In this document: positions 2,291 to 64,000 of the stretch, one piece after another
How the letters are laid out: the number at the start of each line of letters is the position of its first letter
How positions within the stretch are numbered: the stretch's first letter is position 1
Assembly: GCF_003121485.1 (NCBI RefSeq)
Contig: NZ_QAVX01000010.1
Coordinates: 62,001 to 126,000 of the forward strand
DNA from: Dyella sp. C11
Lineage (GTDB): Bacteria; Pseudomonadota; Gammaproteobacteria; Xanthomonadales; Rhodanobacteraceae
DNA length: 64,000 nucleotides
Direction: 5' to 3'
Position numbers and translations under genes: made by a program
The notes under the pieces: generated by a model
Told to the model about the DNA's origin: nothing
Seen by the model: the letters and a program-made list of their open reading frames with translations, nothing else
The model's database searches: none

Positions 2291-2337
2291 ACAGGGGGTG
2301 CGAGAACGGGCGCGATTATACCTGTCCGGGCCGCCGC

Positions 2338-3630
2338 TCAGGCCGCTTCGGGTCCAGTCGATTCAGCAAGTACGGCCGAGGCGACGAAAAAGGAACCGAA
2401 GGCGAGCACGCATTCGCCGGCATTCGCCGCGTTTTTCGCGGCCTTGAGCGCAGCCGGTACGTCGGCGTGGATGTCGAAGCGTGCGTCCGGCAGCGCCTCC
2501 ACCAGCCGTTCGGCGAGCGCCTGGGCCGGCAAGCCACGCGGCGTATCGCGTTCGAGTCCTGCCAGGTGCCAATGCGCAATGCGAGAACCCAGGGCCCGGA
2601 TCACGCCCGACACATCCTTGTCGGCAAGCGCGCCGTACACGGCGTGCACGGGCATGTCGGGGCGCGCGTCCAGCCATTCGGCCAGGGCGCGCGCCGCCTG
2701 CGGGTTGTGACCCACATCGACCACGAGCATGGGATCGCCGCCCAACACCTGGAGGCGGGCTGCCACGCGTGCGGTGGCCACGCCGGTGGCCGCGGCCGTC
2801 GCCAGATCGCGGCCTGCCAATACGGGATCGATCCGCTGCAACGCATGCAGCGCCGCGATGGATGCGGCTGCATTCGCGTACTGCACGGGAGCGGTGAGCG
2901 CCGGATCGGGCAGCGAAAGGGTCAGCCCGTCGCGATGGCGCCATTGCCAGCCGGCAGGCTCGCGCTCAACGCTGAAGTCCATGCCGGCGCGCTCCATGCT
3001 GGCACCGATGCGCACCAGCGCCTGCAGCAAGCCGCCGGGTGGCTCGGATTCACCCACAATGGCCGGGCGCCCTGCCCGCGCAATGCCGGCCTTCTCCACA
3101 CCAATGGTGTCGCGATCCGGCCCCAGCCAGTCCATGTGATCAAGATCGACCGTGGTGATCACCGCCACATCGGCGTCGATGATGTTCACCGCATCGAGGC
3201 GTCCGCCCAGCCCCACTTCCAGCACGGCGACATCCAGCGCCGCTCGTGCGAAAAGATCGAGTGCGGCCAGCGTGCCGAATTCGAAGTACGTGAGCGGGAT
3301 ATCCCCACGCGCCGCCTCGATGCGTTCGAAGCTGGCCACCAGCATCTCATCGCTCGCGTCGCGGCCATCGATGCGGATGCGCTCGTTGTAGTGCAGTAGA
3401 TGCGGGGAGGTGTAGCAGCCCACGCGCTGGCCCATTGCCGTGAGCATGGCCTCGAGCATGGCCACGGTGGAACCCTTGCCGTTGGTGCCGCCCACGGTGA
3501 TGACGCGACGGGCGATCGCCGGCGCGCCCATGCGCTGCCACACGTCGCGTACGCGATCGAGGCCAAGCTCGATGCTGCGCACGTTCACGCGTTCCTGGTA
3601 GGTCAACCATTCGTCGAGAGTACGGGTCAT
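2338..3630 (-). CDS. folC: Bifunctional folylpolyglutamate synthase / dihydrofolate synthase
   Basis: Mur-ligase-family enzyme that adds L-glutamate to dihydropteroate and to reduced folates using ATP. The P-loop ITVGGTNGKGSTVAM sits near residues 44-58, followed by FolC-typical TSPHLLHYNERIRIDG and GLGGRLDAVNI. The C-terminal ligase domain includes VDVGHNP. About 430 residues, normal for the family. ATG at 3630 (MTRTLDEW) is preferred over a TTG two codons upstream. It is followed on the same strand by dedD, cvpA and purF. Its usual upstream neighbour accD is not here but at the far end of the window. Confidence 0.95.
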   Translation of the reverse strand: MTRTLDEWLTYQERVNVRSIELGLDRVRDVWQRMGAPAIARRVITVGGTNGKGSTVAMLEAMLTAMGQRVGCYTSPHLLHYNERIRIDGRDASDEMLVASFERIEAARGDIPLTYFEFGTLAALDLFARAALDVAVLEVGLGGRLDAVNIIDADVAVITTVDLDHMDWLGPDRDTIGVEKAGIARAGRPAIVGESEPPGGLLQALVRIGASMERAGMDFSVEREPAGWQWRHRDGLTLSLPDPALTAPVQYANAAASIAALHALQRIDPVLAGRDLATAAATGVATARVAARLQVLGGDPMLVVDVGHNPQAARALAEWLDARPDMPVHAVYGALADKDVSGVIRALGSRIAHWHLAGLERDTPRGLPAQALAERLVEALPDARFDIHADVPAALKAAKNAANAGECVLAFGSFFVASAVLAESTGPEAA

Positions 3631-60942: not shown

Positions 60943-62103
60943 GTGCGCATCGGCATTGTCAGCGAAACGTATCCACCCGAAATCAACGGCGTGGCACTGA
61001 CCGTTCATAGCCTCGCCGCCGGACTCGCGTCGCACGGGCACACGGTCGACCTTATTCGTCCCCGCCAGAAGCAACCCTTCAAGGACGAGCCCGGCATCGT
61101 GACGCTTGAAGTACGTGGCGCCTCGCTTCCCCGCTATCCCGGCCTGCGTTTCGGCCTTCCCGCCGGCGGTGCGCTGCGCAAGCGCTGGTCGCGGCTGCGT
61201 CCGGACGTCATCTACGTGGCGACCGAAGGCCCGCTGGGCTGGTCGGCCGTTCGCACGGCCAGGCGCATGGGCATTCCTACCGCCACGGGTTTCCACACAC
61301 GCTTCGATGCGTATGCCGATCACTACGGCGTCGGGTTCCTCACACCCGTGGTGCGCAACTATCTGCGCAACTTCCACCAGCGCGCGGCGGCAACGCTGGT
61401 GCCTACGGAAGCACTCGCCGCCGAGCTCACCGCGCTGGGCGTGGACACCGCAAAACTGCTGCGCCGTGCGGTGGATACGCGCCTGTTTCATCCCCGCCAT
61501 CGCAGCGTGGCCATGCGTGAATCCTGGGGCGTGGACGGCAACACGCCGGTGATCCTCTATGTGGGCCGCATCGCACCGGAAAAGAACCTTGATCTCGCCG
61601 TGCGCGCCTTCCGCGCCGCGCAGCAGCAGGTGCCGAACGCGAAGTACGTGTGGGTGGGCGATGGCCCGGCACGCGCTGCGCTGCAGGAAGCCAATCCCGA
61701 TTTCATCTTCGCCGGCATGCAGCGCGGCGACGCGCTCGCACAGCACTACGCCAGCGCGGATCTGTTCCCGTTTCCCAGCCTCAGCGAAACCTTCGGCAAC
61801 GTGATCCTCGAAGCGCTGTCTTCCGGCCTGCCGGTGGTGGCCTACGAAGAAGGTGCGGCGCGCGAGCACCTGCACACCGGCCAGAACGGTTATCGCATCG
61901 ATGCCGGCAATGAAAAGGCCTTCATCGATTCCACCGTGCTGCTGGCGTCCAACGCCAGCCTGATCCGCCACATGGGGCGTGCCGCACACGCGAGCATCGC
62001 CAACCTTTCACCGGACGCTGTGATCAACGAGTTCGAAAACCTGCTGCGTAAACTGGCCGAGGAGAACACGCATGAGCACCATGCCGCCGCTGCACACGCC
62101 TGA
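60943..62103 (+). CDS. GT4-family glycosyltransferase
   Basis: 386-residue GT-B fold enzyme. The N-terminal half starts RIGIVSETYPPEINGVALTVHSLA, a glycine/asparagine pattern typical of GT4 acceptor-side domains, with TGFHTRFDAYADHY. The C-terminal donor domain has VILYVGRIAPEKNLDLAVRA, WVGDGPARAAL, FAGMQRGDALAQHYASADLF and the EX7E motif in PSLSETFGNVILEALSSGLPVV. It resembles PimB- or sulfoquinovosyl-type lipid glycosyltransferases. GTG at 60943 is used; the ribosome-binding site is weak. It overlaps the PAP2 gene by 32 bases. Confidence 0.88.
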   Translation: MRIGIVSETYPPEINGVALTVHSLAAGLASHGHTVDLIRPRQKQPFKDEPGIVTLEVRGASLPRYPGLRFGLPAGGALRKRWSRLRPDVIYVATEGPLGWSAVRTARRMGIPTATGFHTRFDAYADHYGVGFLTPVVRNYLRNFHQRAAATLVPTEALAAELTALGVDTAKLLRRAVDTRLFHPRHRSVAMRESWGVDGNTPVILYVGRIAPEKNLDLAVRAFRAAQQQVPNAKYVWVGDGPARAALQEANPDFIFAGMQRGDALAQHYASADLFPFPSLSETFGNVILEALSSGLPVVAYEEGAAREHLHTGQNGYRIDAGNEKAFIDSTVLLASNASLIRHMGRAAHASIANLSPDAVINEFENLLRKLAEENTHEHHAAAAHA

Positions 62104-62644
62104 CCTTCGCACGGGCCCGCGTTTCGCCATTGACCGCCGCATGTGCGTGGCGGCGAATCGCTGGGGCACACGCCGCGCTGTCGGTGTCTTTTTCGGCATC
62201 ATCAGCCGTCTTGGCGATGGTGTGTTCTGGTATTCGCTGATGGCCGTGCTTGCGCTCGTCGATGGACGGCGCGGCCTGTTTGCCGCGTCGCAGATGGCGA
62301 TCACCGGCCTCACCGCCCTGCTGCTTTACCGCCTGCTCAAGCGCTGGACGCGTCGCCCTCGCCCGTTCCGCGCCTGCCCCGGCGTGATCGCGCATGTGCC
62401 GCCGCTGGACGAATTCAGCTTCCCCTCGGGGCACACACTGCAGGCGGTGAGCTTCACCGTCGTCGCGCTTGCCTGGTATCCGCTGCTTGCACCGCTGCTG
62501 CTCGCGTTCACCGGATTGGTGGCTGCTTCGCGCGTGATCCTGGGGCTGCACTATCCGAGCGATGTCATTGCTGCCACCGCCATCGGCGGCGCACTCGGCG
62601 CGCTGTCGCTGTGGCTGCTGCCGTTCCACGCGCTGCTTGCCTGA
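62072..62644 (+). CDS. PAP2 family membrane phosphatase
   Basis: 190 residues with five to six membrane helices. The phosphatidic-acid-phosphatase signature is complete: KRWTRRPRPF, FPSGHTLQAV and SRVILGLHYPSDV. It probably dephosphorylates a lipid phosphate (undecaprenyl or phosphatidate type). GAGGAG stands 7 bases before its ATG, which is inside the end of the glycosyltransferase gene. Co-transcription suggests the two act on one lipid-linked product. Confidence 0.92.
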   Translation: MSTMPPLHTPDLRTGPRFAIDRRMCVAANRWGTRRAVGVFFGIISRLGDGVFWYSLMAVLALVDGRRGLFAASQMAITGLTALLLYRLLKRWTRRPRPFRACPGVIAHVPPLDEFSFPSGHTLQAVSFTVVALAWYPLLAPLLLAFTGLVAASRVILGLHYPSDVIAATAIGGALGALSLWLLPFHALLA

Positions 62645-62649
62645 TACGC

Positions 62650-62667
62650 GCTGCACATTTGTGCAGC
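62650..62667 (+). terminator. Small hairpin after the PAP2 gene
   Basis: 7-bp perfect stem (GCTGCAC with GTGCAGC) and a 4-base loop, 5 bases past the PAP2 stop. No T-run follows; weak terminator or RNA end. Confidence 0.45.
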
Positions 62668-62682
62668 AGCGTGTCGTGGTTG

Positions 62683-62725
62683 CTTTGACATCAGTGAGAT
62701 AGAACACCTATCCACAAGCTTTTCC
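62683..62725 (+). repeat. 43-bp direct repeat, left copy, with TTGACA
   Basis: 43 bases identical to 63123-63165 except for two positions; the copies are 440 bases apart. Each contains a perfect -35 hexamer TTGACA (62685-62690 here) followed after 18 bases by TATCCA, so each could be a sigma70-like promoter overlapping the first DnaA-like box of modules 1 and 4. Confidence 0.85.
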
Positions 62726-62753
62726 CGCACGCGTCCACATTGGCTGTGGAAAA
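62708..62753. repeat. DnaA-box-like module 1
   Basis: Three 9-mers related to TTATCCACA: 62708-62716 (+, CTATCCACA), 62731-62739 (+, GCGTCCACA, weak) and 62745-62753 (-, TTTTCCACA). Start offsets are 23 and 14 bases, the same as in the three other modules of this intergenic region. Confidence 0.8.
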
Positions 62754-62837
62754 CATGGGGCGAGCACTTGCCTGCAACGCTGGGCAAGAAGTGATCACGA
62801 TGTCGCGATCACCTTGCGCGACAGAACGTTAGGGCAC

Positions 62838-62883
62838 TTTTCCACAGGTTTGCGCCTTTCGCATCCACAAGCGCTGTGGAAAA
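62838..62883. repeat. DnaA-box-like module 2
   Basis: 9-mers at 62838-62846 (+, TTTTCCACA), 62861-62869 (+, GCATCCACA) and 62875-62883 (-, TTTTCCACA). The outer boxes form a 10-bp inverted repeat and fit the relaxed consensus TTWTNCACA. Offsets 23 and 14 bases. Confidence 0.85.
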
Positions 62884-62951
62884 CATCGATGTGCTGATCA
62901 GTAAATCAGCAGCACGTAGCAAGTGTCTGTCGACAAAGGCCGATATCGTGC

Positions 62952-62997
62952 TTGTCCACAGGGTTATGCGTGGGAAATCCACACGTGCTGTGGAAAA
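62952..62997. repeat. DnaA-box-like module 3
   Basis: 9-mers at 62952-62960 (+, TTGTCCACA), 62975-62983 (+, AAATCCACA) and 62989-62997 (-, TTTTCCACA). Offsets 23 and 14 bases. Confidence 0.85.
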
Positions 62998-63122
62998 CAG
63001 GCAGCGTCGCATCGGAAAGAACGCGCCATTGATTTCATCGCATGCGCATCGGTGCCATTTCAATCGGGGCGTGATGTCCACGCACGACGGTTGCGCATTT
63101 GCACACCAGCACGTCGCGCCCT

Positions 63123-63165
63123 CTTTGACATCAGTGGGATAGCACACCTATCCACAAGCTTTTCC
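63123..63165 (+). repeat. 43-bp direct repeat, right copy, with TTGACA
   Basis: Second copy of the repeat at 62683-62725 (41 of 43 bases identical), including TTGACA at 63125-63130 and the start of module 4. Confidence 0.85.
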
Positions 63166-63193
63166 AAGCTGCATCCACATGAGCTGTGGAGAA
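63148..63193. repeat. DnaA-box-like module 4
   Basis: 9-mers at 63148-63156 (+, CTATCCACA), 63171-63179 (+, GCATCCACA) and 63185-63193 (-, TTCTCCACA). Offsets 23 and 14 bases. It ends 10 bases before the accD terminator. Confidence 0.85.
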
Positions 63194-63202
63194 CTTCGCG
63201 CA

Positions 63203-63229
63203 TAAAAAAACAGCGCCCGGAGGCGCTGT
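63203..63229 (-). terminator. Rho-independent terminator of accD
   Basis: Reading the minus strand: 8-bp stem (63229-63222 with 63217-63210, ACAGCGCC and complement), CGGA-type loop, then seven T residues (63210-63204). It lies 27 bases past the accD stop, so accD transcription ends here and does not continue into folC. Confidence 0.9.
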
Positions 63230-63255
63230 CTTCATCATGCATGTGCGAATTCCGA

Positions 63256-64000
<745 letters not shown>

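Follow-up and report, generated by a model that had tools for sequence, protein, structure and literature searches.

Four 46-bp modules between a PAP2-superfamily gene and accD of Dyella sp. C11 carry DnaA boxes in a fixed geometry and most likely (with a probability of roughly 0.55) are multiplied variants of the E. coli DARS sites, at which DnaA would exchange ADP for ATP. Recharging of DnaA at the modules is what we infer by analogy with DARS1 and DARS2, and it may contribute to the timing of DNA replication. The same modules recur at two other loci of this genome and in many genomes of the order.

The array beside accD

A gene-free stretch of 611 bases (62645-63255) of the window, that is, of the whole 64,000 nucleotides analysed, separates a PAP2-superfamily gene from accD, both supported by Pfam. 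It holds four 46-bp modules, starting at 62708, 62838, 62952 and 63148, each with three sites in plus, plus, minus orientation at offsets of 23 and 14 bases; the three TCCACA/TGTGGA cores of a module are identical at 18 of 18 positions in all four. A previous sequence-only reading had described this stretch and these modules in the same way, and both descriptions were confirmed, as was its count of four 9-mers out of twelve fitting TTWTNCACA (at 62838 and, on the minus strand, at 62745, 62875 and 62989). A weak box between sites 1 and 2, and two further loci elsewhere in the genome, were beyond its reach. Read on the minus strand, a module consists of box I, 5 bp, box II, 2 bp, a weak box III, 3 bp and box IV. 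The features are as follows.

62072..62644, plus strand: PAP2-superfamily gene (PF01569), its stop ending at 62644, directed at the array
62689..62701, plus strand: IHF-like site CATCAGTGAGATA, a weak candidate adjoining module 1, 7/9 to WATCARNNNNTTR
62708..62753, minus strand: module 1; box I 62745-62753 TTTTCCACA; II 62731-62739 GCGTCCACA on plus; weak III 62720-62728 TTTTCCCGC; IV 62708-62716 CTATCCACA
62838..62883, minus strand: module 2; box I 62875-62883 TTTTCCACA; II 62861-62869 GCATCCACA on plus; weak III 62850-62858 TTGCGCCTT; IV 62838-62846 TTTTCCACA
62952..62997, minus strand: module 3; box I 62989-62997 TTTTCCACA; II 62975-62983 AAATCCACA on plus; weak III 62964-62972 TTATGCGTG; IV 62952-62960 TTGTCCACA
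63129..63141, plus strand: IHF-like site CATCAGTGGGATA, a weak candidate adjoining module 4, 7/9 to WATCARNNNNTTR
63148..63193, minus strand: module 4; box I 63185-63193 TTCTCCACA; II 63171-63179 GCATCCACA on plus; weak III 63160-63168 TTTTCCAAG; IV 63148-63156 CTATCCACA
63204..63229, minus strand: terminator-like hairpin ACAGCGCC-TCCG-GGCGCTGT followed by T7, between accD and the array, spotted by eye
63256..64000, minus strand, continuing beyond the end of the window: accD (PF01039 and PF17848), its stop at 63256, directed at the array

The equivalent of the IHF-like position scores 6 and 5 of 9 at modules 2 and 3, respectively. A promoter and terminator scan found none, and the terminator-like hairpin was not reported by it either.

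Rigid spacing and DnaA boxes

The spacing was evaluated in 47 stretches (385 kb) picked for holding modules and counted without deduplication, three Dyella modules being included twice (L074 and L256 are apparently one contig). Gaps of 0-60 bp from TCCACA to TGTGGA measured 5 bp in 122 cases, 28 bp in 128 and any other length in 5, and same-strand start distances were 23 bp in 112 cases and different in 6. The 40 fetched stretches were drawn from among the matches listed and lean to family f1, with 7 of them coming from two f2 genomes. Throughout the genome of C11, TCCACA-N0-28-TGTGGA occurs at 26 places, with a gap of 5 at 10 of them (nine modules and the priA site treated below), a gap of 28 at 6 (outer pairs of modules) and scattered gaps at 10; the reversed control gave 8. 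Module-to-module distances revealed no clear period of helical phasing.

A logo was built from 135 distinct modules in 46 stretches; its seed was limited to the three hexamers, of which at least 17 of 18 positions had to match. Bases outside the seed showed preferences, with site 1 starting in T (0.73) and T (0.97) and site 3 ending in A (0.93) and A (0.78); they yield TTATCCACA at site 1, TTWTCCACA at site 3 and a TT-T-CA element in the middle. This element, between sites 1 and 2, shows TT (0.99, 0.84), A 0.44, T 0.66, C 0.85 and A 0.50, reads TTATGCA in one genus, and can be taken as a degraded TTATNCA, a putative weak DnaA box. In the same 135 modules the TT that opens a DnaA box is missing from site 2, the would-be box II (T 0.09 and 0.41). 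The DnaA of Dyella sp. C11 and that of E. coli share the residue at each of 12 positions checked, and their domains IV are identical at 61 of 94 positions; the readings relied on were this protein and, among relatives, those at L299 and L301.

According to the available part of PMC11317965, E. coli DnaA favours pairs of boxes in the same direction 2 or 3 bp apart, and one base added to the 3-bp gap greatly lowers binding, whereas one base removed does not. Boxes II-III and III-IV of the module likewise face the same way at 2 or 3 bp, but compared with the double boxes of that excerpt the module has one weak box joining two others, plus the opposed box I. The sequence-only reading had taken the rigid spacing as a sign of selection on protein binding or RNA folding. 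Judged from sequence, DnaA binding is well supported as the reason for the fixed geometry, because unseeded bases complete the boxes at sites 1 and 3, the DnaA residues are conserved and the 2- and 3-bp gaps fit.

Copies in the genome and distribution among relatives

The draft genome of Dyella sp. C11 (4.73 Mb, 46 contigs) contains 11 modules at three loci (4, 2 and 5 modules), all three arrays located between convergent genes, with 33 strong sites as counted from the module search. The second locus has two modules between a LysR gene and trpF, about 4.3 kb on from the accD array in the same contig, and the third, on contig C44, has five modules flanked by a DUF4124 gene and an SDR gene. The sequence-only reading had asked whether the 46-bp pattern would be found once, next to accD, or at hundreds of loci as a scattered generic repeat; it is found neither once only nor by the hundreds.

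When 250 genomes of the order were searched with the 18-base hexamer geometry, allowing up to 1 mismatch, 86 of them matched, including 84 of the 195 rated good, and the matches span 21 of 77 genera; the reversed pattern had 0 hits in the same 250 genomes. Among the matches listed, two array-bearing genomes (G185 and G224) fall outside families f1 and f2, and genus-mates carry modules at the same loci. Arrays are not essential to the order, since 164 of the 250 genomes are without them. Class-wide, the pattern was present in 9 of 185 genomes, three of them members of the order, and the reversed control gave 1 hit (G317). Outside the order, five of the six matching genomes (G306, G349, G394, G427 and G446) show a DARS core extended by a fourth box that carries one mismatch in each case; they constitute a weak hint because about one such match is expected by rough arithmetic. 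In the sixth (G391) the match to the array pattern is found on the opposite side of the DARS core.

A screen of named accD loci for the fixed geometry (at least 16 of 18 matching positions) revealed modules beside accD in 5 of the 80 loci kept, among the matches listed, those of Rhodanobacter sp. C03, C01 and B05, a Rhodanobacter MAG and Dyella marensis; the other 75, including one Luteibacter, had none. In 17 of 46 module-bearing stretches, accD and a module are no more than 1 kb apart, and the accD of the window shares 89% identity with its counterparts in Dyella marensis and Rhodanobacter sp. C03. One genus-mate, G008, has a dispersed repeat, roughly 1 kb long, with one module per copy (L248, around 2317-3345; L249, around 2545-3556); its copies are 89% identical, lie on opposite strands and have inner repeats.

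Likeness to DARS1 and DARS2

The E. coli sites DARS1 and DARS2 have three boxes each, at equal spacing, with box I opposed to II and III (PMC5742627, available part), and boxes opposed in this way are said to favour a head-to-head contact by which ADP is released (PMC8682772, in excerpt). The DARS2 core is described as conserved among gamma-proteobacteria related to E. coli (PMC4245941, likewise in excerpt). In MG1655, by our own reading of the sequence, both sites place box II at +14 and box III at +26 relative to box I, the I/II pairs being TTATCCACT-5-TGTGGATAA in DARS1 and TTATTCACC-5-TGTGGATAG in DARS2; for the II-III pairs this reading is the same as in the excerpted PMC11317965, and the assignment of box I is that of the present analysis.

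The modules have in common with DARS1 and DARS2 the opposed I/II pair with its 5-bp gap, further boxes on the side of box II facing as box II does, and a non-coding location far from oriC along the replichore. In DARS, however, box III is strong and lies at +26 from box I, whereas the strong third box of the module lies at +37 and only a weak box is present at about +25, poor in all modules of the window (TTTTCCCGC, TTGCGCCTT, TTATGCGTG and TTTTCCAAG). Box II of the module is weak, in contrast to the TTATCCACA or CTATCCACA of E. coli DARS, and the modules, unlike DARS1 and DARS2, occur in tandem at several loci, with an IHF-like site in one subtype only. They are not strict members of the DARS class, because box III, a defining feature, differs; a strong box III 3 bp beyond II (+26) is absent from the modules and present in a core beside priA.

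G000:C44:77883-77912 (L067:9884-9918): exact DARS-geometry core TTATCCACA-5-TGTGGATAA-3-TGTGGATGG, adjoining priA (Pfam)

This core, situated about 7 kb from the five-module array of C44, has the same I/II pair and 5-bp gap as the modules but differs in its strong box III at +26 and its near-consensus boxes. The DARS-geometry pattern, with at most 1 mismatch, was found in 243 of the 250 order genomes, most of them with one hit (reversed control, 2 hits in 1 genome), and class-wide in 146 of 185 genomes (reversed control, 1 hit), which suggests that DARS geometry is widespread in Gammaproteobacteria. Among the matches listed, 60 such loci (30 from the order and 30 from the class) had priA in the fetched flank in 25 cases, rnpA in 1, and none of the 18 proteins tried, priA among them, in 34; these 34 loci point to at least one further recurrent place. 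No paper was found in the open-licence literature on DARS with Xanthomonas, DnaA boxes with Xylella repeats, or a DARS core at priA, under those names.

By analogy with the E. coli sites, DnaA would bind boxes I and II head-to-head across the 5-bp gap, and more molecules would continue the assembly head-to-tail across the 2- and 3-bp gaps, on the weak box III and on box IV. The head-to-head contact may loosen ADP from ADP-DnaA, and the emptied DnaA would depart and take up ATP, raising the level of initiation-competent ATP-DnaA. Repetition of the module (4, 2 and 5 at the three loci) would multiply this activity, and the location between convergent genes may keep promoters away. The boxes, their geometry, their recurrence and their positions are read from the sequence; the binding of DnaA, the release of ADP, a role for IHF and an effect on the cell cycle are what we infer.

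Chromosomal position and gene context

Positions were taken from 13 closed relatives, out of a set of 15 from which G109 (no exact length) and G240 (6 contigs) had been dropped. Their 32 clusters span 0.22-0.86 of the replichore, and 23 fall into one of two zones, 0.29-0.40 and 0.75-0.82. In 29 of the 32 clusters the orientation of the modules opposes that of the fork, the exceptions being three lone modules (binomial P 3e-6, to be read with caution, as is the Fisher value below, because kinship and shared gene order make clusters dependent). An overlapping hit in G243 and a lone hit in G114, both co-directional, were left out and would give 29 of 34. The priA-side cores are located at 0.16-0.44 of the replichore in 11 genomes. 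For E. coli we take the corresponding fractions, which depend on the position of dif, to be about 0.66 for DARS1, 0.41 for DARS2 and 0.20 for datA.

Of 52 array clusters, 36 are flanked by convergent gene pairs; among the other gaps in these stretches that measure 60 bp or more, 14 of 136 are (Fisher P 4e-15). A further 15 clusters lie between tandem genes and 1 between divergent ones. Gene context was obtained with a codon-usage caller, whose calls were checked against Pfam at the three arrays of C11. In the available part of PMC5010248, transcription through DARS1, DARS2 and datA is reported to harm them, and their positions to matter. The modules do not adjoin dnaA/dnaN or gidA/mnmG, as an oriC would: dnaA of C11 is on contig C41, and the modules are on C1 and C44.

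IHF-like site and subtypes

Matches to WATCARNNNNTTR peak 19 bases before site 1, with a mean of 4.79 of 9 against 2.85 (sd 0.11) in shuffles that ignore relatedness, and 14 of 135 modules score at least 8; offset -34 has a nearly equal mean (4.72) with 0 modules at 8 or more. The IHF-like site is confined to one subtype, which includes the window, where the modules score 7, 6, 5 and 7. It is treated as a lead only; in this subtype a bend introduced next to box IV could serve to time the module. DARS2 of E. coli is activated through IHF and Fis sites. In a second subtype (genus g25 and family f2; e.g. L264-L273), a AAGTNNTTG..CAAG-like motif was seen by eye before box IV in place of the IHF-like site.

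Alternative explanations

The leading idea of the sequence-only reading was a datA-like locus for DnaA titration or regulation. The DnaA part of this idea was upheld by the boxes, the DnaA residues and the gaps, and the comparison with datA proved less apt. Titration or datA-like activity, in which the arrays would soak up DnaA or trigger its ATP hydrolysis so that free ATP-DnaA falls as they replicate, is the main rival, though considered unlikely. In its favour, the arrays concentrate many near-consensus boxes, the 33 strong sites of C11, in few places, and there is support for DnaA being titrated on the chromosome in E. coli (PMC12371093, in excerpt). Like the modules, datA groups DnaA boxes in non-coding DNA, together with an IHF-like site that one module subtype also has. 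However, the essential boxes of datA run in one direction, flank the IHF site and lie near oriC (PMC5742627, available part), whereas the most rigid element of the modules is an opposed pair, as in DARS, and the clusters are spread over 0.22-0.86 of the replichore, mostly in the two zones given above. Titration alone, moreover, does not need exact spacing.

DnaA bound at the modules might instead serve chromosome organisation, fork passage or termination of transcripts between convergent genes, a clearly less probable reading than titration. The prevalence of convergent flanking genes and the orientation against the fork agree with such a job, but the 15 tandem clusters and the divergent one do not, and the DARS-type I/II pair and the 2- and 3-bp gaps are left unexplained by it. 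Still less probable is a REP-like family of hairpin-forming or RNA repeats with folding TCCACA/TGTGGA arms, the other candidate of the sequence-only reading, which found no support. The arms could pair, and the dispersed repeat of G008 carries a single module, but 11 copies at three loci, the same loci in genus-mates, differ from the many dispersed copies of a REP family, and box-like bases fall outside any arm. No convincing covariation was detected at variable pairs of either hairpin in the 135 modules: of 14 pairs, columns 23/45 gave a shuffle P of 0.004 and 2/43 of 0.053, signals that were not counted because the slid control 25/45 gave 0.021, and most columns of the arms are invariant, hence uninformative on compensatory change. 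Rfam had no match over the modules, and hits below the curators' cut-offs fall around a hairpin at 63195-63300 or elsewhere.

Implications

The DARS-variant reading bears on a process, DnaA recharging, about which little is known outside E. coli and its relatives. As a candidate site the modules are compact, repeated and easy to recognise, and many genomes keep their geometry, which would make recharging directly testable. From the side of evolution, their 2- and 3-bp gaps also put the pair-spacing rule of E. coli DnaA to an independent test. A broader and more tentative proposal, which we put below even odds, is that the fork-oriented arrays of four-box DARS variants and the canonical DARS-type site beside priA together form a graded DnaA-recharging system of the family, its dosage changing as forks pass about 0.35 and about 0.77 of the replichore. 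By the same proposal the DARS core would be ancient in Gammaproteobacteria and often retained next to priA, and no speciality of the relatives of E. coli.
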